From the NCBI GenBank assembly GCA_016234445.1, contig JACRBT010000002.1, positions 310,001 through 374,000 on the forward strand: a DNA stretch of 64,000 bases. Reading direction: 5' to 3'. Position 1 is the first letter of the stretch, and each line of letters starts with the position of its first letter. The notes below the pieces were generated by a model. The model saw only the letters and a program-made list of their open reading frames with translations. It was not told the DNA's origin and did no database searches. The translations under genes were made by a program, and so were the position numbers. This DNA is from Chloroflexota bacterium (GTDB lineage Bacteria; Chloroflexota; Dehalococcoidia; Tepidiformales; Tepidiformaceae). Positions 1 to 15,020 of this stretch are shown one piece after another.

Positions 1-520
1 TCAAGCGGTTCCGAGACGCCGTTGGCCCGGCGGGTGCGGTACTCACCGCCCTCGCCGTCCTTGAGCCGGTTCTGGTGGCCGAGGAACGACAAAGGGACGT
101 GGATCAGGATAAGGACGCCGTCGTCGGTGCGCTCAACCTCGGCGTCGAGCTTTTCGATGGGCGGCGAAACGTTGTCCTTCAACCATTGCAGGACGCGATC
201 ACGGGTCCAATCCGATGGAGCAAGTTCGATGCTGGCGGCGGCGCTCCACCCTCTTTCCGCGGGAGCCTCGGCGATACCGATGGCGACGAGTCCGCCCTCC
301 GTGTTAGCCATCGAGGCCACGGCTTTCGTGAGCTGATGCCTCCCTGATCGCTTGAGGTTCTCACGCTCCAACAGTTTCCCCGACTTGAACTCCAGCGTGA
401 GCCCTTCCGACGCACTCTCGGCGATCCAACGGCGGAACGTCTCGCTGAGGCCCTCGCTCACTCCGCGGCCTCCACGACGGGGGCGGTACCGGGGCCGACG
501 CGGCCGCCCCGAACAGTCAT
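1..520 (-). CDS. AlbA_2 (Schlafen-type) ATP-binding protein, partial
   Basis: Reading the minus strand from the ATG at 520 gives an open frame of 173 codons that runs off the left edge, so the C-terminus is missing. After a short basic leader, the segment LTLEFKSGKLL, then LTKAVASMANTEGGLVAIGI, matches the AlbA_2 family (PF04326), whose hallmark is an EFK strand followed by an ANT-x-GG-x-hydrophobic-IGI motif. Such proteins are nucleic-acid- or ATP-binding and are frequent in defence islands. The ATG overlaps the helicase stop codon (ATGA at 517-520), so the two genes are translationally coupled and probably act together. Family assignment is solid; the exact role (regulator, effector or helicase partner) cannot be read from this part. 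Confidence 0.85.
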
Positions 521-3500
521 TGGAGTCTCCCCGGCCTAACGGTGCCATCGCTGGCAGCGTGCAGCCGGCCAGCGTCGACCAGCTGCTTCAAGGCGTCCTC
601 CAGCGACCCCTTGATCTCTGGTCCGTTGCGGCCAAAGCCGAAGTGGCGGGCGGTCTCCGTTACCAACTCGTCGGCTGTGGGGCCGATGACCACCCCAAGG
701 ACCGCAAGGATCCCGGCCTCAAGTTCTGCGAGTGAGATGCGGGTCACGTCGCGCCGGCTGCCGGCGGCCGGGCGGCGCGGCCGGGCCTGCCGGCCCGGCA
801 GATGGTAGAAGGCGTCCTCAACTGAAAGGATCTGCTGCTTGGAGTGCAGCTTGTTGAGAGCTTCGTTGACCCTTTCTCTAGCTTCCTCTCTCGCGCGCCC
901 GAGGCCGTAGCGCAGGCGCAGCCTTTCCACGATCAAGTCGACGTGGACCGGGCCTTCGGTGTCCACTATCTGGAGAATGAGCGGCGCCAGGGTGCGATCG
1001 GTCTCGAGGCGAAGCTCCGGCCCGATAGGGATCCCTCCCAGCGACGCCTCCCGGTACCTGGCGAACAGGTGCTCGGGGGCAGGTTCATCGACGGGCCCGT
1101 CAGCTTCGTCATGCACCACGTCAGAATCGTCCGCAGCTGGCGGCGGGACCGGAGTCGTCCAACCGCTAGCGTGGACCCGGCGAGCCCGGGCGACCTCGAG
1201 GGCGGCCTCGATGCGTTCGACCTCGGCGGAGGGATTCTGGAGCCAGGACGTGGACCAGACCCGGTGGATCGCCCAACCCAGGTCCTCCAGCACGGACTGC
1301 CTGAGCCAATCCCGGTCCCGCGCGGCTGGCGCGGAGTGATAGGTGGCGCCGTCGCATTCCACCCCGAGGTCGAACCGTGTCCCATCGACCGAATAGATGC
1401 CGAGGTCGATCCGGTAACCTCCGACCCCAACCTGGGGCTGCACCCGGTGCCCGCGCTCCCGGAGGGCCGCGGCGACCGCGTCCTCAAACGGACTGTCCGT
1501 CACGGCATTCGGGTCGAACGCCTGCTGCGCCTGGATGGCGGTGGCTGGCGCCGCCGCGTATTCGAGGTACCGCCGGAGGGCCTGGGCGCCGGCCGTCGTC
1601 GACGTGATGTCCGTGGGGCGTAGCGAGCGGACAACGGTCATGCTCATGCGAGCTCGGCTGACAGCGACATTGAGCCGGCGCCAACCCAGATCCGAATTGA
1701 GAGGGCCGAATCGATTGAGCACCGGCCCCCCCGGGGATGCGGGGCCGTAGCCAACGGAGAACACAATGTGGTCGCGCTCGTCACCCTGGACGTTCTCCAG
1801 GTTCTTCACGAAGAATGGCTCGTGCACTTCCTCCGAGAACCGCGAATCGAATTCGTCGGTGCCGCGGCGATGTTCGTCCAGCAGCTGTTGGATGAGATCC
1901 GCCTGCGTCCGAGAAAGGGCCACGACGCCGATGCTTTCATCCAAAGGGCGTGCCCTCATCAGTGCGAGGACGCACTCGACTACCCGGCGAGCCTCGACTT
2001 CGTTCTTGCCCGGGGCCGGCGAGCCGTACCGCCCATCGGCGACGTAGACATCGCGCACACCCAGATGCTCCGTTTCCCGCTCCGGGGAAGGGAACACGAG
2101 CAGCCGGTTGTCGTAGTAGGAGTGGTTCGAGAACCGGACCAAGTCTTCGTGCCGGCTGCGGTAGTGGACGGACAGGTAGCGTTCAGAGACGTCCCGGCCC
2201 AACCTGGCGTCCAGGACGTCCAGGATGCTGGCGCGGTCCTGGAGCGCGTTTCCGTCCTCCTCGTCGTCATCGTCCGTGGCGGTCCCGTCGTCGTCACTGA
2301 GCTTCCGAAAGAAGGCGGTCGGCGGCAACTGTTTCTCGTCGCCCACGACGATGACCTGGCCCGCGCGGGAGATCGCCGGGGCCGCATCCTCGGGGAACAC
2401 CTGCGAAGCCTCGTCGAAGATGACGAGATCGAAGGCGAGGTTCTCTGACTGGATGGGGCCCCGGGCGAGGTGCTGGCTCACGGCGAGCGGGCTCATCAGC
2501 ATGCAAGGCTTAATGCGGGACACGAGGCCCGGGATGCGCTGCAGGAGCTTCCGGACTGGTAGCTGCTTCCGTTGCTTCGAGATCTGGTCCCTGAGGACGT
2601 TCTCCTCGCCCGCGTTCGTGTAGGTCATGACGTGGGCCGGATACCGGGAAAAGCATTGCTTCCGCACCTCCGCCCGGGCTGCGAGCGGCATGGCGGCATC
2701 CAGATCCCGGAACTGGGCAATGAGGAGGTTGTGGTCCGTCCCGGCGAACGTCCTGAGCAGCGGTTCCGTCGCGTACACGTTCTCCAGCCAGAGCTGAAGG
2801 ACCCGCCGCTCCACTATTCCAGGGATCTGCTCGGACGCGGCAGTGGTTGCGCGGATGCGGGAGACCGACGGTTTGCCGATGAGCGCCTCCAACTGGCGAA
2901 CGGCCTCGGAGTAGCGAAGCCAGGCGGCGGCGCCGGAGGGTTCAGACGCGATGCCGTCGGCCCATTCCCGCAGTTCCGGGAAACCCGCCTTTCGCCAGGC
3001 CTCCCAGGGCGTGGCCGTTTCGTCGAAACGCGCGCTCACTCCGGTCATTTCGGCGTCAAACGCCGCCAACTCGGCAGCCAGGCGGAGACGCCAATTTTCA
3101 TAGGCCTGTGGCACGTCCGGCGTCACGGCGTGGGCTCGCAGCCGGTCCGAGGGAACGGCCGGCGCCGTCGAGATGAAGGCATCGGCCCACTGCAAGGCCG
3201 CGTCGACACCTTTCCAGTCGGTCTCCCAGCCATTGAACCGGCCTTCGAAGTCGCGTGCGAGGGCTGGGGTCAGGCGTTTCATCTCCTCTTCATAGGCCTG
3301 GAGATGCGATTCACGATCGAGCAAGTCCCGTAGCGCTGCCAACTCGTAGATCGGCTGGCGGAGTTGAGGTTCCAGCTCCTCGACAAGCGCGGCCATCTGG
3401 CGTAGCGCGGGCAGCGCAGCCGTCGCCGCGGGGACCAACTGATCAACGGGTCCCAGTGGATCTGAGACCGGCCCCAGCGTCAGCTCGGTATCACGGAGTG

Positions 3501-6111
3501 CCCGGAGCGCTCCCAGCGCCGCTTCGATTGCGTCCGCCAGACCGGATTCCGGCGGGGAGGTGACGAGAACAGGTGGGAACGCACTGCTGCTCGGGTGCGC
3601 CAGCAAGTCGTGGACCTCGGCGAGATCAGCCAGCACCTGCGACCAATCGGTCTCGGGACCACGGAAGCGCCGCCCGAGTGTATCGGAGAGCGCTGCAGAG
3701 TGCGCCGCCCAATGCTGGCGCAACGAACCGAGCTTGAGGGCGTCGCTGATGGCAGTCGCCGCGGCGTTCACGTCCAGTGGTCGTGGGGACTTCAGGCAGG
3801 CCCGGAGGACGCGCTGATCGGCCTTGAAGGCCTTCCCGAACGTGCGGGCGACCCAGCTTTGATGGTCGGTGCGGTACCGGGCGAGCATCTCTTGAGTCGC
3901 GCATAAGAGAAGCGTCTCCTCCCAAACCGCCAGCAGGGGGACTTCGACTTCTCGGAGGTCGGCGAGCGTCTTTCGTGCTTCCGCGACCGCCTGTGGAATT
4001 CGCCAGTCAGCAGCCCCTGGATCAAGCCAGCCGGGAGGGATGGGCGCGAGCGTTCGAATCCGGGCCGCGAGTTCGAGGCCTGACCGCGCCTCAGCACGGC
4101 TCTCCGGGCTGGCCATGCCGAGCATGTTGCTCAGAACTGCAAGCGTCGCAGCCGCAAGCTCGGCTCGGCCCCTGATGGCTTCGGCAGCAGCGGCAAGGGT
4201 GCCGGAGGTCTGGACGGCGACCGCCGTCCACCCCGCCGTCCCGAGCAGATTGCCGACCTTCGGTGCCGCCAGTTCGGCCGCGTGCAGGTGCTCCGCCAAT
4301 GCGCTGGCGTTGGCGAGGTTCCCGGGGCTGAGCAGCTGGACGGAAAGCGAAACTCGAAGTCCGGCGCGGCGGCGCTGCGCTTCAGCGCGCTCCGCCGCAA
4401 TTCGGCGCAGCCGCGTGAGGGCGTTCGAATCGAGCCACGCAGAGCTGACACCGGGGGCGGTTGCCAGCGTCTCAAGCATCGGCGTGAGACGGTCGGCGGC
4501 GACCGGAGACGCCGGCGACCTCACTCCCAACCATGCCGCGAGTTCTCCGGCTAGTGGATCGAGCGCGCCAACTGCCCGATGGACCGAGCCGGCATCCCGC
4601 AACACGAGGTCGTCGAGCCCGACGGGAGAGAGCGAAACGCGGAGTGGGCGCCAGCGGCTGGTGGTATGCTCGCCGAATTGCACCCCATAGGGCACCAGGC
4701 GCGCGGCGAGCATGACCACCTGGTTCAGAGCCACCGAGTCGAGCGCACCTGGATTCGAGATGAAGAAGTCCACATCCGGGAGTTCGCGGAGCTGGGCGGC
4801 GCGCCCATGCACCTGGAAAACACTCCGCCCGAGGGGTTGGCGTCTCGTGTGCAGCGCGCGGACGAGGTCGTTGAGCTGCTGGCGATGCGCAAGAAGCGCA
4901 GTGTAGTTGAACCCGGACGTGGCGGTCTTCCGGGCGTCTTCCAGCGACTCTCTCAGCTGCCGATAGACACTCGCCTTCTTCCCACGTTCGGAGTGCATGT
5001 CGAGGCAGAAAACACCGAGGCCGCATTCGTCGAGGCGGCGCTTCACGACGTCGAGCGCGGCCGTCTTCTCACTCACGAACAGGACCGTTCTCCCAGACGC
5101 GATGAAGTTCGCGACGATGTTCGCAATCGTCTGGCTCTTGCCGGTTCCTGGCGGGCCGTGGATGACGAGGTTGAGGCCGGCCGCGGCAGCGCCCACCGCC
5201 TGCATCTGGCTGTAGTCGGCCTTCACCACTAGCGGCAGAGTCTTGGGGTCGGGGACATGATGGTCCAACACCGCTCCCGCAAGATCGCCTTCGTGAAGGT
5301 TGAACCAGTCGGAAGGTCCGGAGATGGCTCCCTGCTTCACATCCGGGTCGCCGGCGAGGGCTCGAACCATCGGCTGGTCTACCTCCCCTTGCTTGAGCCC
5401 TTCAAGGTCCTCCCACATCGCGGCCTTCGAGTACTGGAAGGTGTCAAGGACGAGCCGCGGTTCGACCGCCCACCCATGACGCCCGGCGACAAGCTGGCTG
5501 ACTTCGTCGAGGTAATCGGCCACCGGACTGCCGCCGTCGAAGTCCGGGAGTGTGAGTCCCAACTTGGAGAGTTTGAACCGGAGCGTCGCGTTGGGGGATG
5601 CGTCGTCGTCTTCCTTGCGGAGATAGAAGTGGTCCCGGGGCGACGCGCGGTCGAGGTCGCATGGCACGAGGACCAGCGGTGCGCGGCCCTTCTGCCCCTC
5701 CTCGTCCTCCCACAGCAGGTACCCGGCGGCGAGGAACAGCACGTTGACGCCCTGTTCCTCGGTAAACTCGCGGTCCTTCCGGCGAAGGTAGCCCAGTCGT
5801 GACTGGAGCCGCTCCGCGTCGAGCGGCGTTTCGATTTGTCCGGGCTCGAAGGTGAGCGGCTCGGGATCGGGAGACGCCGGGTCGAACAGCCCGAGGGTGC
5901 GTGGTTTTCTTAGAGTGAGGGGGAACGACAATCCGCCTCTGGCTGACTCAAGGCGGTCAAGGAACTTGTCGAGATCATCGCAGGTGATTTCCACCGACGA
6001 GGTTCGCGACTCCTTCCAGTAAAGCAGCCGATTGCGCCGGTCCAACTGAAGGAGTTGCTCTTGCCAGCGACCGATGCTGTCCCGGACGCGCGCATCCGCT
6101 GCGGACGTCAC
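517..6111 (-). CDS. DUF4011 / SF1 helicase / Vsr-like nuclease / DUF3320 fusion protein
   Basis: This very large protein (about 1864 aa from the chosen start) begins with a DUF4011 segment (GRWQEQLLQLDRRNRLLYW). It continues as a superfamily 1 DNA/RNA helicase: Walker A GPPGTGKSQ near residue 320, Walker B LVIFDEASQVFPED, then VVGDEKQLPPTAFF, and a late motif DLGWRRLNVAVSRAR. Around residues 1540-1640 lies an MTES_1575/DUF559-like PD-(D/E)xK nuclease (SPFE, RIDLGI, GVECDGATYHS), and near 1695-1770 a DUF3320 domain. Helicase-Vsr fusions of this kind are known in defence islands, so an anti-phage or anti-plasmid role is likely but not proven. The frame stays open to 6642, but that extension is compositionally odd and covers two operator-like palindromes. 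The GTG at 6111 has AGGG nine bases upstream; the ATG at 6159 is the alternative. Its stop overlaps the AlbA_2 start. Confidence 0.88.
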   Translation of the reverse strand: MTSAADARVRDSIGRWQEQLLQLDRRNRLLYWKESRTSSVEITCDDLDKFLDRLESARGGLSFPLTLRKPRTLGLFDPASPDPEPLTFEPGQIETPLDAERLQSRLGYLRRKDREFTEEQGVNVLFLAAGYLLWEDEEGQKGRAPLVLVPCDLDRASPRDHFYLRKEDDDASPNATLRFKLSKLGLTLPDFDGGSPVADYLDEVSQLVAGRHGWAVEPRLVLDTFQYSKAAMWEDLEGLKQGEVDQPMVRALAGDPDVKQGAISGPSDWFNLHEGDLAGAVLDHHVPDPKTLPLVVKADYSQMQAVGAAAAGLNLVIHGPPGTGKSQTIANIVANFIASGRTVLFVSEKTAALDVVKRRLDECGLGVFCLDMHSERGKKASVYRQLRESLEDARKTATSGFNYTALLAHRQQLNDLVRALHTRRQPLGRSVFQVHGRAAQLRELPDVDFFISNPGALDSVALNQVVMLAARLVPYGVQFGEHTTSRWRPLRVSLSPVGLDDLVLRDAGSVHRAVGALDPLAGELAAWLGVRSPASPVAADRLTPMLETLATAPGVSSAWLDSNALTRLRRIAAERAEAQRRRAGLRVSLSVQLLSPGNLANASALAEHLHAAELAAPKVGNLLGTAGWTAVAVQTSGTLAAAAEAIRGRAELAAATLAVLSNMLGMASPESRAEARSGLELAARIRTLAPIPPGWLDPGAADWRIPQAVAEARKTLADLREVEVPLLAVWEETLLLCATQEMLARYRTDHQSWVARTFGKAFKADQRVLRACLKSPRPLDVNAAATAISDALKLGSLRQHWAAHSAALSDTLGRRFRGPETDWSQVLADLAEVHDLLAHPSSSAFPPVLVTSPPESGLADAIEAALGALRALRDTELTLGPVSDPLGPVDQLVPAATAALPALRQMAALVEELEPQLRQPIYELAALRDLLDRESHLQAYEEEMKRLTPALARDFEGRFNGWETDWKGVDAALQWADAFISTAPAVPSDRLRAHAVTPDVPQAYENWRLRLAAELAAFDAEMTGVSARFDETATPWEAWRKAGFPELREWADGIASEPSGAAAWLRYSEAVRQLEALIGKPSVSRIRATTAASEQIPGIVERRVLQLWLENVYATEPLLRTFAGTDHNLLIAQFRDLDAAMPLAARAEVRKQCFSRYPAHVMTYTNAGEENVLRDQISKQRKQLPVRKLLQRIPGLVSRIKPCMLMSPLAVSQHLARGPIQSENLAFDLVIFDEASQVFPEDAAPAISRAGQVIVVGDEKQLPPTAFFRKLSDDDGTATDDDDEEDGNALQDRASILDVLDARLGRDVSERYLSVHYRSRHEDLVRFSNHSYYDNRLLVFPSPERETEHLGVRDVYVADGRYGSPAPGKNEVEARRVVECVLALMRARPLDESIGVVALSRTQADLIQQLLDEHRRGTDEFDSRFSEEVHEPFFVKNLENVQGDERDHIVFSVGYGPASPGGPVLNRFGPLNSDLGWRRLNVAVSRARMSMTVVRSLRPTDITSTTAGAQALRRYLEYAAAPATAIQAQQAFDPNAVTDSPFEDAVAAALRERGHRVQPQVGVGGYRIDLGIYSVDGTRFDLGVECDGATYHSAPAARDRDWLRQSVLEDLGWAIHRVWSTSWLQNPSAEVERIEAALEVARARRVHASGWTTPVPPPAADDSDVVHDEADGPVDEPAPEHLFARYREASLGGIPIGPELRLETDRTLAPLILQIVDTEGPVHVDLIVERLRLRYGLGRAREEARERVNEALNKLHSKQQILSVEDAFYHLPGRQARPRRPAAGSRRDVTRISLAELEAGILAVLGVVIGPTADELVTETARHFGFGRNGPEIKGSLEDALKQLVDAGRLHAASDGTVRPGRLQ

Positions 6112-6303
6112 GTCGCCACGCCCTGGTGCCTCAGCCCGACGCGCCGCTGCGGCCGCCATCCGCGGCCGTCGGTCGCGCCACGCTCGGGGCAGCAAGTCCC
6201 GACGGGACGGCGGGTGGCACCGGCTGACTTCCGTGGCGGTGGTGGCATCGTGGTTGGGAGTGTGGGCTAAGCGAGCATTCGGCCGCAAGGGGGCGGACGA
6301 AAT

Positions 6304-6320
6304 GCGACAAGAGTTGTCGC
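6304..6320. promoter_or_regulatory. operator-like palindrome, copy 1
   Basis: GCGACAA-GAG-TTGTCGC is a perfect 7-bp inverted repeat around a 3-bp centre, a geometry typical of a dimeric repressor site. The same arms recur at 6496-6512, and I noticed no other copy in the window. It lies on the helicase side of the divergent region. No regulator gene is adjacent. Confidence 0.6.
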
Positions 6321-6495
6321 GGGCCGGGGTTCGTGGCCGCGCGCTTCCGAGGGCAGCAAAGGCATCGTCACCCCGCGCGCGCAGGCGGCCAACGCGAGCC
6401 GAGTCCGTGGCCAGCATGCATCCGGCTAGTCTGTGGGGTCCATCGGGCTGTCTGAACCCCGCGCTCTCCGTCGGACTCTGCTCGCCGCCATTCCT

Positions 6496-6512
6496 GCGAC
6501 AACAGTTGTCGC
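6496..6512. promoter_or_regulatory. operator-like palindrome, copy 2
   Basis: GCGACAA-CAG-TTGTCGC has arms identical to copy 1 and differs only in the central base triplet. It sits 77 bp before the cas3 start and directly upstream of an AT-rich stretch, a good position to control cas transcription. Start-to-start distance between the copies is 192 bp. Confidence 0.6.
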
Positions 6513-6588
6513 CTCCGGAACTTATTATCCGCGGCGAATCAATATCCGTTACCGTTAGCGACTCTTCGGAATGGAGGGGGTGACGACC

Positions 6589-8757
6589 GTGTGGGCACAT
6601 TCGATCAACAGCGCAGGCCAGCGCCAGCCCCTCGACGAGCACCTTCGGGAGGTTGCACGACTGGCGGCTCTGCTAGCGAGTCCCTTCGGCGGCGAAACAC
6701 TCGCTCATGCTGCGGGCCTCTGGCACGACCTCGGGAAGGCCGACCCTGAGTGGCAGCGCTACCTGCTGGAGAACGAAGCTGGCACCCGAACGAGGGGCAC
6801 CGGGCCCGACCACAAGTGTGCGGGCGCGAAGGTAGCCCTGGACAGCGGGCAGCAGGCGGTCGCGTTGCTCATCCACGCCCATCACGGAGGACTCCAGGAC
6901 AGGCAAGCGTTCCGGAGCTGGTACGACCGTAATGCCACGTTGCCGGGCGTGAGCGCAGCCCTCGCTGCGGTCCGGAGAAGCAATCCCGGTCTTGCCTCCG
7001 AGCTCCCGGTCGACCTGCCTCCCGGCGTTTTGCGCGAACCTCTCGCGGCGGAGATGTTCCTTCGCCTCGCCTTCTCTGCGTTGGTAGACGCGGACACGCT
7101 GGACACCGAGCGGCACCACCTGGCGGGCCAGCCGACGGCCCGCGGCGCCACTGTCTCGATGCTGGAGTTATGGGAGCGCTTCGACGCCTACCACCAGGCA
7201 CACGCTGCGACCGACGCCTCCGTGGTCAACGACGTCCGGGCGGAAGTCTACCGGGCATGTCGCGACGCGGCCGACGAGCCGACAGGCGTCTTCCGGCTCA
7301 CGGTGCCGACGGGCGGGGGCAAGACCCGCTCGGGCATGGCCTTCGCGCTTCGGCACGCGGTAAGACACGGGCTTCGGCGCGTAGTCGTGGCTGTGCCATT
7401 CACGACCATCACCGAACAGACGGCCCAGCAGTACCGGGAAATCTTCCAGGCGGGGCCCCCCGGGTCTCCGGTCGTGCTCGAACACCACTCCGCGGCGATC
7501 GAAAGCCGTGGCAACGATGAAGACTGCTCCGGCCCTGGGCTATGGCAGCGGTTGGCGGCCGAGAACTGGGATGCGCCAGTGGTGGTGACCACCACGGTCC
7601 AGCTGTTCGAAAGCCTCTTCTCGAACCGCCGGAGTAAGACCCGGAAGCTCCACAACCTCGCCAGGAGCGTCATCATCCTGGACGAAGCCCAGTCTCTTCC
7701 CGCCCCTTTGCTCAGTCCCATCCTCGACGGCCTGCACCAGCTGACAGCCCACTTCGGTGCGACGGTCGTCCTCTCGACGGCGACCCAACCGGCGTTCGAA
7801 TCCGTGCCGTCCTTCAACCAGGTCGTTGCGCGGGAAATCGTACCCGATCACAGTCGGCACTTCGCCGCGTTGCGCCGGGTTACCTACGACTGGCGGGCCA
7901 ACAGCGAGCACGATTGGTCCGAAGTGGCCGGCTGGATGCGACTGGAGAAGTCGGCGCTGGCGATCGTAAACACAAAGCGCCAGGCAATCGACCTCCTCGA
8001 TAGCCTTGCCGACCCTGACGCGCTTCACCTCTCGACACTCCTTTGCGGCGCGCACAGACGGGATGTCCTGGCCGAGGTGCGAGCACGCCTCACTGCGGGT
8101 CGGCCCTGCCGCGTCGTGTCGACGCAGGTCGTCGAGGCCGGCGTTGATATCGACTTCCCGGCCGTCTTCCGTGCCCTCGGCCCGCTCGACTCCATCATTC
8201 AGGCGGCCGGCCGCTGCAACCGCGAGGGCCACCTGACGACCGGCCGCGTCGTGGTGTTTCAGCCAGCCGACCGGACACTGCCCTCGGGTGCGTATCCCAC
8301 GGGGGCGGCGACCACGCGCGTCCTTGCCGGCAACACCTCGTTCGACCCCCACGACCCGGACTGGATTCGGCGCTACTTCCGTCTCCTGTTCGAGGGCGGG
8401 GTCGACACCGACGCGAAGGGGATACAGGCCTCGCGACGGTCGTTGAACTACCCCCGGGTCGCGGCAGACTTCCGGATGATCGACGACGAGACCGAAGATG
8501 TCGTGGTTGGCTACGGTCGCCCTGAACAGCAAGCGGAGGTGGGCGAAATCCTCCAACGCCTGGGTGCCGGCGAGCCGGGAACCCGGCTGCTCATGAGACG
8601 GCTGCAGCCCTTCCTCGTGTCGCTGCGCGCCAGGGAAGCCGATCGGCTCCGGGCTGAAGGCTTGATCGAAGACGTCATGCCGGGCCTGGGGCTTTGGCGC
8701 GGACGCTATGAACCGGTTCGCGGACTTGTGACCGAAGACCCGGACTACATCGTCTGA
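6589..8757 (+). CDS. cas3: CRISPR-associated helicase/nuclease Cas3 (type I-C)
   Basis: The N-terminal HD nuclease is visible as HSIN and LAHAAGLWHDLGK. The helicase part has Walker A VPTGGGKTRSG, motif II ILDEAQSLP, STATQP, and a motif VI region (VVEAGVDIDFP, then IIQAAGRCNREG). Length of about 722 aa is normal for a fused HD-helicase Cas3. It unwinds and degrades target DNA after recruitment by Cascade. The GTG at 6589 is chosen because GGAGGGG lies nine bases upstream; the ATG at 6571 would place that Shine-Dalgarno inside the gene. It is the first gene of the cas3-cas5c-cas8c-cas7c operon, and gene order fixes the subtype as I-C. Confidence 0.96.
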   Translation: MWAHSINSAGQRQPLDEHLREVARLAALLASPFGGETLAHAAGLWHDLGKADPEWQRYLLENEAGTRTRGTGPDHKCAGAKVALDSGQQAVALLIHAHHGGLQDRQAFRSWYDRNATLPGVSAALAAVRRSNPGLASELPVDLPPGVLREPLAAEMFLRLAFSALVDADTLDTERHHLAGQPTARGATVSMLELWERFDAYHQAHAATDASVVNDVRAEVYRACRDAADEPTGVFRLTVPTGGGKTRSGMAFALRHAVRHGLRRVVVAVPFTTITEQTAQQYREIFQAGPPGSPVVLEHHSAAIESRGNDEDCSGPGLWQRLAAENWDAPVVVTTTVQLFESLFSNRRSKTRKLHNLARSVIILDEAQSLPAPLLSPILDGLHQLTAHFGATVVLSTATQPAFESVPSFNQVVAREIVPDHSRHFAALRRVTYDWRANSEHDWSEVAGWMRLEKSALAIVNTKRQAIDLLDSLADPDALHLSTLLCGAHRRDVLAEVRARLTAGRPCRVVSTQVVEAGVDIDFPAVFRALGPLDSIIQAAGRCNREGHLTTGRVVVFQPADRTLPSGAYPTGAATTRVLAGNTSFDPHDPDWIRRYFRLLFEGGVDTDAKGIQASRRSLNYPRVAADFRMIDDETEDVVVGYGRPEQQAEVGEILQRLGAGEPGTRLLMRRLQPFLVSLRAREADRLRAEGLIEDVMPGLGLWRGRYEPVRGLVTEDPDYIV

Positions 8758-8815: not shown

Positions 8816-9469
8816 ATGTCAAACCCTCTCCCCCCAATGGAAGTGAAGCTCTGGGGCGACCTCGCATGTTTCACGCGCCCGGAGATGAAGGTCGAACGGG
8901 TCTCGTATCCGGTCATGACGCCTTCAGCAGCGCGCGGCGCGCTCGAAGCGATCTTCTGGAAGCCGCAGATCACCTGGCATGTGGGCGAAATCCATGTGCT
9001 CAGGCCCATTCAGTACGCGTCGATTCTCCGCAACGAGGTCAACAGCCGGCAGAGCCAACGGGTCGCCGAGGGCTGGCGGTCCGACGGCGGCGGCTACGAC
9101 GCGAGCGCGGACCGGGCGCAGCGCCACACCCTCGCGTTGCGCGACGTTGCCTACCTGGTCCGGGCCCAGGTCGAGCTGAAACCCGGCGTCAGCGACGACA
9201 TCGCCAAGTACCGGGATCAATTCCGGCGGCGGGTCCGTGAAGGCCGCTGCTTCGCGACGCCGTTCTTGGGATGCCGCGAATTCTCAGCCGCATTCGCTGA
9301 ACCCGACGGCAACGACGTTGCCATCCCCCGCAGCGAAGACCTCGGACCGATGCTGCTCGACATCGACTATGAGCCGGGCGGGAGTGGCCGCGGGAAACCC
9401 CGCTTCTTCCGGGCGACGCTCGACGCCGGGGTGATGCGTGTACCCGGCCGCTTCGCGGAGGTGACCTGA
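8816..9469 (+). CDS. cas5: Cas5c, crRNA-processing Cascade subunit
   Basis: The 217-aa protein starts SNPLPPMEVKLWGDLACFTRPEMKVERVSYPVMTPSAARG, the usual Cas5c/Cas5d opening with the glycine-bounded RAMP fold. In type I-C, which lacks Cas6, Cas5c cuts the pre-crRNA and stays bound to the 5' handle. A strong AAGGAGG stands five bases before the ATG. The stop codon overlaps the cas8c start (TGATG), indicating coupled translation. Confidence 0.95.
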   Translation: MSNPLPPMEVKLWGDLACFTRPEMKVERVSYPVMTPSAARGALEAIFWKPQITWHVGEIHVLRPIQYASILRNEVNSRQSQRVAEGWRSDGGGYDASADRAQRHTLALRDVAYLVRAQVELKPGVSDDIAKYRDQFRRRVREGRCFATPFLGCREFSAAFAEPDGNDVAIPRSEDLGPMLLDIDYEPGGSGRGKPRFFRATLDAGVMRVPGRFAEVT

Positions 9470-11196
9470 TGCTGCTCCAGCGGCTCAAAGCGTACGCGGA
9501 CCAGCGTATGCAGCTGCCGCCGTGCCTGTACTCAGAGACCCCGATTGGCTACATCGTGGAAATCGACTCTGCCGGCCGGCCTCTGAGCCGGGTGCCGACG
9601 CCGACCATGGACCCCACGAATCCCGCCACGCGCCGCGGCGTACGGCGGTTCGCCCCGGACATCGTGAGGTCTTCCGGGGTCAAGGCCCTGCTCCTTGCCG
9701 ACCAGTCGGAGTACACCTTCGGCCTCGCGCGGGATCCCGGGAAGCAGTCACGAGTCGACGTATGCCACAGGGCTTACCGGGAGCTCCTGGATGACTGCGC
9801 CGCTGCCGCCCACGAGCCTGCGGTCGACGCGGTCCGCAACTTCTACGCGAACGGCGGGGTCGCAGCCCTGGATCTGCCGGACGACTTCGACCTGGCGGCG
9901 AAAGTAACGTTCCGCGTGCACTTTGGCGGAGATGCCGTGTTCCCCACCGACCTCCCGGCAGTGCAGCAGTTCTGGGCCGGTCGCAACGACCCTGAGGCCG
10001 CCGGAGCGGCAACGATGCAGTGCCTCGTCTGCGGTTCCGTGGGGCCTGTTCTCAGCCGGCTCCAGGGCAAGATCAAAGGAGTGCGGGGCGGCCAGACTTC
10101 GGGCACCTCCATCATTTCTGCCAACGCCGAGGCGTTCGAGTCGTTCGGACTCGAAGCATCGCTCATCGCCCCGACATGCGCGGGCTGTGGCGAGCGGTTC
10201 ACCAAGGCTGCCAACGAGCTGATCGCTTCGGACACCACGCATCTTCACCTTGGCAACGCAACCTTCATTTTCTGGACGGTTGCGGAGACGGGCTTCTCCC
10301 TCACGTCGTTCCTTACCGACCCGGATCCCGCTCAGGTCAAGGGGCTGTTGGACTCGGCGAGGAGCGGGAGCCCCGCATCAGCGGTACAGAGCACGGCGTT
10401 CTACGCTGCCGCCCTCTCCGGGAGCGGCGGGCGCACCGCCGTCCGCGACTGGGTGGACACCACCGTCGGCGAGGTCCAACGCCAGCTTGCCCGGTGGTTC
10501 GACCTCCAACGCATCGTGGAGTGGGACGGCAGCGAAGGTAGGCCACTGGGCCTTTACCAGCTCGCCCGGGCCACGGTCTTCAAGGCCGATGACATCCGCA
10601 GCGCAACGCCACGCGCGCTGCTTCACGCCGCGCTCACGGGCACACCCGTGCAGCCGGGGCTGCTCTATGAAGCGGTCCGGCGGAACCGGGCCGAGCAGAA
10701 GGTGACCCGCGAGCGAGCGGCGCTCATCAAACTCGTCCTGCTCTCGCGGGACACCACCCCCCACACGGAGGAGTACATGGTCGGTCTCGAACCTGAGCAC
10801 CCGGACACTGCCTACCACTGCGGGCGTTTGCTCGCTGTGCTCGAATCGGTGCAGCGGCGGGCTATGCCCAACCTGAACGCCACCATCGTCGACCGCTTCT
10901 TCGGTACCGCGTCATCGGCACCCGCGAGCGTCTTCGGCCGGCTGCTTCGTGGCTCTCAGCCGCACCTGTCGAAGCTCGAACGGGACCGGCGTGGGGCGTA
11001 CATCAACCTCCAGCGCGAGCTCGAGGACGTGACCCGACAGATTCCGGCGTTCCCAAAGACGCTCACGCTCGAACAGCAGGGCCTCTTCGCGCTCGGCTAC
11101 TACCACCAGCGCGCCCACCGTGGCCATCGCGCCGACGCCGACGCCGACACCACAACCGACAACGACACTCCCACGACCAACCAAGGAGCACTGTGA
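9469..11196 (+). CDS. cas8c: Cas8c (Csd1), large Cascade subunit
   Basis: The 575-aa protein starts MLLQRLKAYADQRMQLPPCLYSETPIGY, typical of the Csd1/Cas8c family that recognises the PAM and recruits Cas3. Two CxxC pairs (CLVCGS and CAGCGE, roughly residues 185-245) look like a zinc-binding insertion. The C-terminus ends in a low-complexity Asp/Thr tail (DADADTTTDNDT), which may be disordered. It overlaps cas5c and cas7c by one base each, so the three subunits are translationally linked. Confidence 0.94.
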   Translation: MLLQRLKAYADQRMQLPPCLYSETPIGYIVEIDSAGRPLSRVPTPTMDPTNPATRRGVRRFAPDIVRSSGVKALLLADQSEYTFGLARDPGKQSRVDVCHRAYRELLDDCAAAAHEPAVDAVRNFYANGGVAALDLPDDFDLAAKVTFRVHFGGDAVFPTDLPAVQQFWAGRNDPEAAGAATMQCLVCGSVGPVLSRLQGKIKGVRGGQTSGTSIISANAEAFESFGLEASLIAPTCAGCGERFTKAANELIASDTTHLHLGNATFIFWTVAETGFSLTSFLTDPDPAQVKGLLDSARSGSPASAVQSTAFYAAALSGSGGRTAVRDWVDTTVGEVQRQLARWFDLQRIVEWDGSEGRPLGLYQLARATVFKADDIRSATPRALLHAALTGTPVQPGLLYEAVRRNRAEQKVTRERAALIKLVLLSRDTTPHTEEYMVGLEPEHPDTAYHCGRLLAVLESVQRRAMPNLNATIVDRFFGTASSAPASVFGRLLRGSQPHLSKLERDRRGAYINLQRELEDVTRQIPAFPKTLTLEQQGLFALGYYHQRAHRGHRADADADTTTDNDTPTTNQGAL

Positions 11197-12080
11197 TGAC
11201 CAACCCCATCGTGAACGACCCCGCCCGCCGCCATGACTTCGTCCTCCTGTTCGACGTCACCGACGGGAACCCGAACGGCGACCCGGACGCCGGCAACCTC
11301 CCTCGCGTCGACCCGGAGACCATGCAGGGCCTCGTCACCGACGTTGCCATCAAGCGGAAGGTCCGCGACTACGTCGACCTTGCCCGGGGGAGCGAACAGC
11401 ACTTCAAGATCTATGTTCAGCACGAAGCCTTCCTCGCCGACAACCGCGCTCGCGTTTTCGCCGAGCGCTCCGGCGGGAAGAAGACGTCCCCTGCCGACGG
11501 GCGGGCCTGGATGTGCGACGAGTTCTTCGATGTCCGCATGTTCGGGGCTGTCATGTCGATGAAGGAGAACAACGCCGGCCAGGTCCGAGGGCCCGTGCAA
11601 ATCACCTTCGCGAGGTCGATCGACCCGATCATCCCCCTGGACCTCAGCATCGTCGGCCCCGCCCAGAATGCGAAGGAGGTCCGGAAGGATGCTGACGAGG
11701 GCGAACCGGCCACCTTCGGGACCATGGGCCGGAAGTCGCTCGTCCCGTACGCGCTCTATCGCGCCCACGGGTTCTTCAACCCGCACTTCGCAAAGCAGAC
11801 CGGCGTGAGCGAAGAGGATCTGACCCTCCTCTGGCGCGCGCTCCAGGACACCTGGGACACCGACCGGTCCGCCGCTCGCGGGCTGATGGCATGCAGGGGG
11901 CTCTACGTGTTCACCCACGACAGCAGCCTCGGGAACGCCCCCGCGCACAAGCTCTTCGAACTCATCCAGGCGCCGAAGAGTGCCGTTGACGCCCCGCGAG
12001 AGTTCGCCGACTACACCGTCACCCGGCCCGCCGACGGCGAGGTGCGGCCCGGCGTGACACTGACGACCCTGGCGGAGTGA
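11196..12080 (+). CDS. cas7: Cas7c (Csd2), crRNA backbone subunit
   Basis: The sequence HDFVLLFDVTDGNPNGDPDAGN is diagnostic for Csd2/Cas7c, the RAMP protein that coats the crRNA in multiple copies. AAGGAG lies seven bases before the ATG at 11196, which shares its A with the cas8c stop (TGATG); a GTG three bases earlier is the alternative. It is the last cas gene: the usual cas4-cas1-cas2 adaptation genes do not follow, and the repeat array begins 47 bases after the stop. Confidence 0.95.
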   Translation: MTNPIVNDPARRHDFVLLFDVTDGNPNGDPDAGNLPRVDPETMQGLVTDVAIKRKVRDYVDLARGSEQHFKIYVQHEAFLADNRARVFAERSGGKKTSPADGRAWMCDEFFDVRMFGAVMSMKENNAGQVRGPVQITFARSIDPIIPLDLSIVGPAQNAKEVRKDADEGEPATFGTMGRKSLVPYALYRAHGFFNPHFAKQTGVSEEDLTLLWRALQDTWDTDRSAARGLMACRGLYVFTHDSSLGNAPAHKLFELIQAPKSAVDAPREFADYTVTRPADGEVRPGVTLTTLAE

Positions 12081-12127
12081 TCTTTCGACCGGCAACGGCT
12101 CCCCACGGACGGGAGTGGCCAGCCTCC

Positions 12128-13155
12128 TCACACCCGCTCTTCGGGGTGGGTGAGGATTGAAACACACCGTGGCTATCGCCGCCCGTAGGCTCGTTTCGCC
12201 CTCGCACCCGCCCTTCGTTCGGGGTGGGTGAGGATTGAAACGACTACTGCATGGTTTCGGGGTGCCCGTGCCAGCTCGCACCCGCCCTTCGGGGTGGGTG
12301 AGGATTGAAACACGTCGCCGGTGGTGGTGGGCTCGGTCTCGGTGTACTTCTCGCACCCGCCCTTCGGGGTCGGTGAGGATTGAAACATGGCGGGCATCTG
12401 GCGGCCCTTCGCGAGCACCTCTCGCACCCGCCCCTCGGTGTGGGTGAGGATTGAAACATGGCGCACGTGAAGAGCGGCATGGCGCTGGGGCCTCGCCCCC
12501 GCCCTCCGGGGTGGGTGAGGATTGAAACTCTGAAGTTGCGAACCGGGCAGCGTAGCTTGTGCTCGCAACCCGCCCTTCGGGTGGGTGAGGATTGAAACTC
12601 TGTGACGGCCATCATGGACCTCCTATCGGTACTCGCACCCGCCCTTCGGGGTGGGTGAGGATTGAAACAACCTCGGCGAGGCTACGGGATGCTCAAGGCC
12701 TGCTCGCGCCGGCCCTTCGGGGTGGGTGAGGATTGAAACGCCGCCATCGGCACTCCGGAAGCGACCGGGATCACCTCGCACCCGCCCTTCGGGGTGCGTG
12801 AGGATTGAAACGCGCTTGACCGGGTGTTCCCGTCGAACGACTGGAGATCTCGCGCCCGCCCTTCGGGGTGGGTGAGGATTGAAACGCCATCGACTCCCAC
12901 GCCGCAATCTCCTCCGGCTCGCGCCCGCCCTTCGGGGTGGGTGAGGATTGAAACTTGTCGTCGCCGCCGGTGATCTTCTGGGCCGCCTCGCACCCGCCCT
13001 TCGCGGTGGGTGAGGATTGAAACAAGTCGCGGCCCGTCTCTAAAGGCGACGCTGCCGCCTCGCACCCGCCCTTCGGGGTGGGTGAGGATTGAAACCGCGC
13101 TCCGGCCTCCGAAGTACCGCCGCGCCGCCTCCAACTCGCACCCTTCGGGCGAGCT
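12128..13155 (+). CRISPR. type I-C CRISPR array, 14 repeats plus a truncated 15th
   Basis: Repeats of 36 nt start TCGCACCCGCCC, contain the stem-loop CCCGCCCTTCGGGGTGGG, and end GGGTGAGGATTGAAAC, the classic I-C 3' handle. Repeat starts are 12128, 12202, 12276, 12351, 12422, 12493, 12563, 12633, 12704, 12776, 12850, 12919, 12988 and 13060; a 20-nt remnant lies at 13136-13155. Spacers are 33-40 nt. Many repeats are damaged: repeat 2 carries an extra TTCG, repeat 7 has an indel pair, and repeats 1, 4, 5, 6, 9, 10 and 13 have substitutions. Orientation matches transcription from the cas side, which leaves only 47 bases for a leader outside cas7. Cas5c would process the transcript. Confidence 0.97.
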
Positions 13156-13245
13156 GTCGTCCCCACACGGGTGGGGGTGAGCCGTTGAGGATGCTCTCCT
13201 GGGCGTCGTCGTTCTCGTCGTCCCCACAGGCGTGGGGGTGAACCG
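13156..13245 (+). CRISPR. type I-E-like mini-array (2 repeats, 1 spacer)
   Basis: Two 29-nt repeats at 13156-13184 and 13217-13245 flank a 32-nt spacer (13185-13216), giving the exact 61-nt period of type I-E arrays. Each contains a CCCCAC/GTGGGG stem and ends GTGAGCCG or GTGAACCG, like the I-E GATGAACCG end. They differ from the preceding I-C repeats in length, stem and handle. No I-E cas gene is in the window. The expected third repeat is absent after the next 32 nt, so this may be the relic end of another array. Confidence 0.85.
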
Positions 13246-13337
13246 AAGAGTGGTCTGGCACAGACCTCGGCGCCGGGAACCATCTCGGGACAGCCGGCTC
13301 AGCGACTCGTCGAGCCCCGGGGCATCGCCCAGTGGCG

Positions 13338-14183
13338 CTACTCCCAAGCAGGCCTCGCGCTCGTGGGCTCGGAACCGTCCCATTCCACCTTCAACCTCGC
13401 GACCATCTCTGCCACTGAACAAACGCCTTTGACGCCAGACACCGAGTGTCCCGCGCTCCAACTGGTATCCCTGATCATGTTTGTGGTTAGTCCCTCTGGA
13501 CCGGTGGTTGCGATCACTCGGTCCAGGTCCGATTCGAGCAGCGCAGCCTTATACGCGGGCGCGGCGCGGCTTTCCGTGGTGGCGATGAAGGCGGTTCCCA
13601 TGAACGCGAGGTCGCAGCCGAGGATAATCGCCGCTCGCAACGAGACGCCGTCACTCACGCCCCCTGCCAGAACTACGGGTCCCTCGTAGAACTCGCGGAC
13701 CGCCCGGACGAACGCGAATGGGTTGACCCACCCGGTGTTCCCGCCCGCGCCTGCTGTGAGCAAGACCAGGCCATCGGCGCCAGCTCCGAGGCACTTGTGG
13801 ACGTGCCGCAAATTCGCAACATCGGCGAACACGCGCGTGCCCGAATCATGGAGGATCGGGATGATGTCACGGGGCGAGCCAACGCTGGCGATCACGAGAG
13901 GCACACGATGCTTGATGGCCATGCGCACATCACCTTCAAGTCGAGACTTCAGACGCATAACCAGGTTCAGCGCCATGGGAGCGGGGTGTAGTCCGGCGTC
14001 GCTCGCTCGCTGGCGGTCTAGCTGGATTCTCCGCAGCCAGGCGTCGAGCTCGTCGGAGGATGTTGCCTCATGCGCTGGAAAGGAACCGATGACGCCAGCT
14101 CGGCACGAGGCAGAGACAAGCTCTGGACCAGATACGCCGCTCATGGGCGCCACGATAACGGGGATGGAGAGCGAATTGATCAT
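13338..14183 (-). CDS. nitronate monooxygenase-like FMN protein
   Basis: The 281-aa protein starts SLSIPVIVAPMSGVSGPELVSASCRAG and has the FMN-phosphate loops AGAGGNTGW and VLAGGVSDG plus LGCDLAFMGTAFIAT, all characteristic of the nitronate monooxygenase (2-nitropropane dioxygenase) TIM-barrel family. It is shorter than the usual 320-360 aa. Close relatives include enoyl reductase-like members, so oxidation of nitronates is only one possibility. AAGGAG stands six bases before the ATG. It is the last of five minus-strand genes probably transcribed from the promoter near 18100. Confidence 0.85.
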   Translation of the reverse strand: MINSLSIPVIVAPMSGVSGPELVSASCRAGVIGSFPAHEATSSDELDAWLRRIQLDRQRASDAGLHPAPMALNLVMRLKSRLEGDVRMAIKHRVPLVIASVGSPRDIIPILHDSGTRVFADVANLRHVHKCLGAGADGLVLLTAGAGGNTGWVNPFAFVRAVREFYEGPVVLAGGVSDGVSLRAAIILGCDLAFMGTAFIATTESRAAPAYKAALLESDLDRVIATTGPEGLTTNMIRDTSWSAGHSVSGVKGVCSVAEMVARLKVEWDGSEPTSARPAWE

Positions 14184-14231
14184 TTCGACTCCTTAGTTTC
14201 CGCTACGCAGTCGTGCTGGCGCGGGAAGCTT

Positions 14232-15020
14232 TCACTCAGGGACTCGGTTCTGTTGGTCTTGCTTATAATCTTCGGTCAGCTGGCCAACTGTAACGACTCG
14301 CCCAGAATATCGTTCAGGAAACCTTGCCAACCAAACGATTGCGGCAGCAGCGACATCAGGACTATGCCATCCGCCTGCGACGTCAGGGCCATCGTCGGGA
14401 AGAACCAGAGCGATGCCTTCGGTTCGGATCAAGAGTTCGAGGCCGAAGCTAATGCAGTGAATCTTGTACTGCCGGACCTCGGCCGCCAGCCCCATCGTCA
14501 GTTTATCGAGGGCAGCCTTCGAGACCGAATAACTAACTCTCCCAGGGGCGACGGAGAGCGTACTGGCTGCCGATGACACGTTGATGACTGTCCCTCCTCC
14601 CGCGCCAATCATGTGAGGAGCAAACGCGCGGAACGTCAGGAGTGGTCCCCTCAGGTTAACGTCCATCACGAGGTCCCATCGCTTCTGAGAAAGGTCTAGC
14701 ACGTTCCCGGGGAACGAGATCCCTGCGTTGTTGACGAGGATATCGCAGCGGCCGAACGCCTCTATCGTGGTCTTGCGGAGCGACTCGACGTTGGCCTCGT
14801 CGCGGACATCGCACCTCACAGCGATGGCGCGGCCGCCGCGGGCGACGACATTCCGCGCGGTCTCCTCGTTCGTCCCCGGGATCTTCGCCGGTTCCGCATC
14901 CGTAGTGCGACCTGCGCAAACCACCGCCGCGCCTTCCTGACCCAGTGCCAGCGCGGCGGCCTTTCCGATTCCACGGCTGGCCCCCGTCACCACCGCTACC
15001 TTCCCGTCGAACAGAGCCAC
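14232..15020 (-). CDS. SDR family NAD(P)-dependent oxidoreductase
   Basis: The Rossmann motif TGASRGIGKAAAL, NNAGIS, the catalytic Ser in INVSSAAS and YSVSK (Tyr and Lys of the active site) define a classical short-chain dehydrogenase. From the GTG at 15020, preceded by AAGGAAGGA, it is 262 aa, close to the family norm. It likely interconverts a hydroxy and a keto group on a CoA-thioester or alcohol intermediate of the surrounding pathway. Substrate cannot be read from sequence. Confidence 0.88.
   Translation of the reverse strand: MALFDGKVAVVTGASRGIGKAAALALGQEGAAVVCAGRTTDAEPAKIPGTNEETARNVVARGGRAIAVRCDVRDEANVESLRKTTIEAFGRCDILVNNAGISFPGNVLDLSQKRWDLVMDVNLRGPLLTFRAFAPHMIGAGGGTVINVSSAASTLSVAPGRVSYSVSKAALDKLTMGLAAEVRQYKIHCISFGLELLIRTEGIALVLPDDGPDVAGGWHSPDVAAAAIVWLARFPERYSGRVVTVGQLTEDYKQDQQNRVPE

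Follow-up and report, generated by a model that had tools for sequence, protein, structure and literature searches.

A type I-C CRISPR array ending in a pair of type I-E repeats in a Chloroflexota genome

Type I-C CRISPR-Cas loci are laid out as cas3-cas5c-cas8c-cas7c-cas4-cas1-cas2 followed by the repeat array; their repeats are processed by Cas5c, and the last repeat positions constitute the 5′ handle of the crRNA. New arrays can also be made by off-target integration. Leaderless or orphan arrays and array remnants are discussed as a general class in PMC12814883. CreA is described in PMC9458426 as having a geometry of one or two ectopic, altered repeats. In the open-access literature searched, no type I array was described as ending in repeats of a different type I subtype.

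Such an arrangement is present in the window, a 64,000-nt stretch from the draft genome (3.54 Mb in 20 contigs, 97% complete) of a bacterium assigned to the Tepidiformaceae; the closest named matches to its Cas8c come mostly from Chloroflexota records. The locus resembles type I-C in possessing the four effector genes in their usual order and, downstream of them and in the same direction, an array whose repeats end in ATTGAAAC; it differs in the absence of cas4-cas1-cas2 and of a leader, in the heavy drift of its repeats, and in a shortened terminal repeat to which repeats of a foreign subtype are attached. These attached repeats share their length (29 nt), their stem and the length of their spacer (32 nt) with the type I-E system encoded on another contig of the same genome (C16), but they are only two in number, carry three base changes and have neither a leader nor cas genes within reach. 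The pair has the small size, the distance from its own cas genes and the altered repeats of leaderless and orphan arrays (PMC12814883) but, unlike them, lies right against an array of a different subtype. It also resembles CreTA/CreA, where one or two altered repeats lie apart from any normal array (PMC9458426), but a partial match to a promoter nearby was not found and the repeats have changed little. The proposal of a sequence-only reading that one array gives way to another of a different subtype at a single point is borne out by both the sequence and the match to the C16 repeat. We consider it probable, if well short of certain, that the I-C effector locus is frozen and that a leaderless remnant of the I-E array native to this genome has been joined to its trailer end, the joint, though unusual, being explicable by decay and rearrangement.

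The I-C effector genes and the drifted array

The effector genes cas3, cas5c, cas8c and cas7c are all open reading frames and all score as I-C (Table 1); for cas3 the NCBIfam model cas3_HD is above its cut-off and cas3_core slightly below. Divergent from cas3 and adjoining the I-C locus lies a further defence gene (517-6642, minus strand) encoding a 2041-aa helicase-nuclease with matches to DUF4011, AAA_11/12 and MTES_1575 and to the PADLOC models PDC-S37 and Hhe.

Table 1. Features of the I-C locus and of the joint, in window coordinates
Feature	Position	Strand	Evidence
cas3 (type I-C; HD nuclease and helicase)	6571..8757	+	PADLOC Cas3c, 1.7e-207
cas5c	8816..9469	+	TIGR01876, 150.9 bits (cut-off 85)
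cas8c (csd1)	9469..11196	+	TIGR01863, 362.7 bits (cut-off 218.65)
cas7c (csd2), final cas gene	11193..12080	+	TIGR02589, 308.4 bits (cut-off 182.25)
Gap between cas7c and first repeat, 46 nt	12081..12126	+	sequence reading
Type I-C array, 14 full repeats, 37-nt consensus CTCGCACCCGCCCTTCGGGGTGGGTGAGGATTGAAAC, spacers of 32-38 nt	12127..13095	+	
Last I-C spacer, 39 nt	13096..13134	+	sequence reading, repeat listing
Shortened I-C repeat and CT	13135..13155	+	CTCGCACCC, GCCC lost, TTCGGG, then CGAG
I-E-type repeat 1, identical at 27/29 positions to the I-E consensus of the genome, with preserved stem	13156..13184	+	repeat comparison, folding
I-E-type spacer, 32 nt	13185..13216	+	repeat listing
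I-E-type repeat 2, identical at 28/29 positions to the I-E consensus of the genome, with preserved stem	13217..13245	+	comparison, folding

No cas4-cas1-cas2 module lies beside the I-C array, only 46 nt separating it from cas7c, and the similarity of this gap to the cas4-to-array stretches of two related loci (L038 and L039) does not exceed that of shuffled sequences. The uniform repeat array behind a leader that is expected of an I-C locus was not found in the window, and no Cas1 other than the I-E protein Cas1e on C16 was found in the genome. The near relative L039, by comparison, has almost the same I-C repeat together with cas4, cas1c and cas2. The distance between cas7 and the array was compiled from 82 entries with a cas7 gene, comprising 77 of 80 related I-C loci and five loci from family members; a downstream repeat was present in 60, at 2.1-4.3 kb in 53 and at less than 0.7 kb in seven (L047, L052, L056, L078, L079, L094 and L118), although the seven may overlap, L118 being, to judge from length and position, apparently the same contig as L056. 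The contrast between the usual 2.1-4.3 kb and the 46 nt seen here supports the view that the I-C locus has decayed.

In L052, which has both cas4 and cas1, the short distance reflects a solitary repeat ahead of cas4. This lone, altered I-C repeat (L052:3486-3521, Moorella stamsii) is situated between cas7 and cas4, with the full array following the adaptation genes, and is a candidate for a crRNA-like regulator or a relic. Within L056 (10600-11250; Dehalococcoidia SJ813, apparently the family member G011) cas4 is retained and the array follows directly. This locus looks intermediate and suggests a stepwise loss of the I-C adaptation genes; its array extends to near the contig end. Two other comparison loci show further irregularities. 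At L079:3570-3760 (Pelotomaculum) three differing I-C-like repeats begin a few bases after cas7, and no cas family was detected in the next three frames scanned, while cas7c of L119 (2296-3164, G028) is broken into three tblastn pieces, suggestive of frameshifts or sequencing errors.

The window array itself breaks off as had been claimed, but its repeat measures 37 nt by alignment, not 36, and it begins at 12127, not 12128; the other coordinates given earlier are correct. Variant repeats make up 11 of the 14, as against none in 33 of 41 comparison I-C arrays, and this difference also speaks for decay. Six comparison arrays contained some variants (L053, 1/64; L056, 4/8; L064, 8/23; L074, 1/21; L078, 1/8; L098, 1/30) in a count that was anchored at the 3′ end and is therefore blind to 3′ changes in those arrays; the 14 window repeats lie in unbroken register, so that none was missed. 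The remaining two arrays, L104 and L107, appeared drifted because their repeats are shorter than the 36-nt frame used, and as artefacts they were not counted as drifted. Drift is no proof of lost adaptation, since L064 is variant in 8 of 23 repeats at a normal cas7-array distance, and this weakens the favoured reading to some degree.

The approximately 16 changes in the 14 window repeats all fall within the first 25 positions and none within the last 12, a distribution with a probability of about 0.002-0.004 under random spread, by a test picked after the data had been seen. Because these last 12 nt are unchanged in 14 of 14 repeats, use of the array may have continued once it no longer grew, so that it would not merely be dead; such continued use also weighs against the reading as a frozen locus. 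Neither a sigma-70-type promoter nor an intrinsic terminator was matched in 11900-13500, a result that carries little weight. A presumed deletion of the I-C adaptation genes and leader would leave the array as a fixed memory that can no longer be renewed. Any transcription of the array may come from read-through of the cas operon, which runs in the same direction. The loss of cas4-cas1-cas2 and the leader, together with the drifted repeats, went unremarked in the sequence-only reading and is a better-supported deletion than that of an intervening I-E locus, which it had suggested.

The I-E repeat pair and the I-E system of the genome

The last, shortened I-C repeat is in register with the array, as its start lies 76 nt past the previous repeat start. 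The repeat proper (CTCGCACCC-TTCGGG-(C)GAG) occupies 13135-13153 and is followed by the bases CT. The partial repeat reported earlier does exist, and two bases separate it from the first I-E repeat, which is complete. The lengths claimed for the terminal unit, 29 nt for the I-E repeats and 32 nt for the spacer between them, hold exactly. Three positions distinguish the two I-E repeats, which are oriented in the same way as the I-C array and carry three changes in 58 repeat positions overall. Their folding energies (-14.3 and -14.4 kcal/mol, for repeats 1 and 2, respectively) are close to that of the consensus (-14.4 kcal/mol) and describe the same stem. The two private changes of repeat 1 nudge it toward the I-C repeat, a likeness that is treated as coincidence. 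After repeat 2, which ends at 13245, nothing repeat-like follows.

A genome-wide search with I-E repeat 1 allowing up to three mismatches returned 23 places, against none for a reversed-pattern control, and the repeats are thus not chance matches. Two of these places are the window repeats and the other 21 belong to I-E arrays on contigs C14 and C16, near contig ends. On C16 the genes cas3-cse1-cse2-cas7-cas5-cas6e-cas1e precede an array with the same repeat, which supplies the I-E operon and array for which the sequence-only reading had proposed a search and establishes the terminal repeats as belonging to the I-E family. Six of the seven genes score above a curated whole-subunit cut-off, cas3 being recognized by core and HD domain models, and a putative cas2 frame between cas1 and the array is read from its position only. 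The existence of a complete I-E locus with a matching repeat in the same genome, and of Cas1e as the only Cas1 found, supports the interpretation of the pair as a relic. On C14 the I-E array ends in a repeat cut after approximately 18 nt (G000:C14:80560-80620), indicating more than one break among the I-E trailers of the genome.

The draft state of the assembly, and the ends of two other contigs, which fall within or right next to I-E arrays, raise the question of a chimera at 13.15 kb. The joint, though, lies within a 490-kb contig with about 167 kb of further sequence beyond it, the 34-mer spanning the junction finds a single place in the genome with as many as three mismatches allowed, and neither of the two changes in repeat 1 is seen in the C14 and C16 copies listed. 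As the 34-mer is unique and the changes of repeat 1 are private, there is no sign of a long k-mer in common that might have led to a misjoin, and an assembly error is judged very improbable.

Three I-E leader ends are readable in this genome and relatives (C16, G011 C81 and G002 C45), and all three share TTNCAGT just ahead of the repeat. The window has GCGAGCT ahead of I-E repeat 1, and, with the TTNCAGT tail missing, the pair is without a recognizable leader. This bears on the idea of an ectopic integration, whereby I-E Cas1-Cas2 would have placed a spacer beside the I-C trailer and, by copying a resident I-E-like sequence, generated a small array. Cas1e as the genome's sole detected Cas1, the clean repeat boundary and the spacer of exactly 32 nt are all consistent with this idea, yet integration duplicates resident sequence, such that an almost perfect I-E repeat must have existed at the site beforehand. 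There is no leader motif either, and the three differences between the two copies show that any such event was not recent. We therefore regard this origin as highly improbable.

With three mismatches allowed, the 32-nt spacer matches nothing else in the genome, an exact search of viral contigs with its first 20 nt was negative, and no protospacers were found, the phage matches being weak (E of 1 or more). The plasmid matches listed are spread over the repeats and look repeat-driven, and they were set aside. A virus-borne mini-array is likewise unsupported, since no exact copy of either repeat consensus occurs in viral contigs and the right-hand neighbours scanned are metabolic genes. A different use of the spacer would be that of a regulatory guide, in which a CreA- or CreR-like repeat-spacer-repeat unit steers Cascade to a nearby or cas promoter. 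The intact stems of both I-E repeats and a geometry resembling CreA, with one or two altered repeats outside an array (PMC9458426), would fit. The best contiguous spacer seed in 11700-14700 is nevertheless only 5 nt, against a mean of 6.2 for 200 shuffled spacers, the best in the cas upstream and leader stretches tested is 6 nt, with ACT before it, and three changes in 58 repeat positions contrast with the strong degeneration reported for CreA. A guide function is accordingly the faintest of prospects.

A probable rearrangement at the joint

The same I-E repeat family was detected in six of 38 family genomes. In one of these relatives, from another genus of the family, a single complete I-E repeat is flanked by truncated pieces (L125:8497-8525, on G015:C33) and appears to be a relic by itself, away from a full array, which lends support to the relic reading of the window pair. 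A tRNA suspected by eye near the G015 remnant was not confirmed. The hybrid arrangement was sought as an I-C tail followed, after 30-60 nt, by two GTNNTCCCC starts 60-62 nt apart, and was found in the window's genome only, at one in 393 genomes of the class and one in 400 of the phylum, samples that overlap by 54 of the phylum genomes listed. The array detector listed no I-E-spaced array beside cas8c in the 80 related I-C loci, whose trailers are under-sampled because many of the loci end at or inside the array. L081, with a period of 59, was considered as a near-60 hybrid but rejected, as it has a single pair only and a different unit.

The window's own genus is represented by this genome alone, and no relative was found that preserves the site in the state preceding or following the fusion. 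To the right of 13245 the flank carries genes for an NMO, an SDR and a CoA-transferase, homologues of which are partly scattered in G037, where no syntenic empty site was found. No I-E cas genes were seen beside the joint.

Under the favoured reading, the I-E pair would be the leftover of an I-E array, probably its old trailer end, moved beside the I-C trailer by a rearrangement that could have been either a deletion between neighbouring arrays or the insertion of the I-C locus beside an existing relic. Deletion in place, whereby a complete I-E locus downstream of the I-C array was deleted apart from its last two repeats, is one route within this explanation. It would account for the shared orientation of the arrays, for two repeats with trailer-like drift, and for the absence of repeat-like sequence after the second. 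Against it stand the lack of an I-E leader at the joint, the metabolic nature of the right-hand genes scanned, the location of the complete I-E locus on another contig, and the lack of a match, over the stretches compared, between the right flank and the sequences beside the I-E arrays of relatives. The loss of an intervening I-E locus, as originally suggested, is thus possible, although as a specific course of events we hold it to be rather unlikely.

The favoured reading is itself weakened by several observations. A random breakpoint in a 61-nt unit would rarely land where the complete first I-E repeat begins, within two bases of the broken I-C repeat, no relative was found to display the site before or after fusion, no protospacer was found, and the assembly is a draft of 20 contigs. 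A more active origin would be that Cas1e-Cas2e made the joint by attaching a broken I-C end, as a spacer, to the leader side of an I-E repeat, the resulting transcript being read by Cas5c and then by Cas6e in trans. We think this hardly probable; if true, a CRISPR integrase, cutting exactly at repeat borders, would have driven a chromosomal rearrangement.

Possible processing across the joint and significance of the locus

If one transcript spans the joint, Cas5c would be expected to cut the I-C repeats, and Cas6e of the I-E system could cut the I-E repeats in trans. The Cas6e cut site in the window repeats is presumably, by analogy, the one that leaves the handle GUGAGCCG, and cleavage would yield one I-E crRNA with this 8-nt handle (consensus GUGAACCG).

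In the samples searched the joint is otherwise a one-genome curiosity. As a whole, the locus offers a clean snapshot of CRISPR decay, in which an effector module outlives its adaptation genes, repeat drift is measurable yet spares the part that forms the crRNA handle, and the relic of a second system lies in a genome where that system is still complete. Here one could also test directly whether a single transcript is able to supply two type I subtypes, and whether Cas6e acts in trans on the relic.
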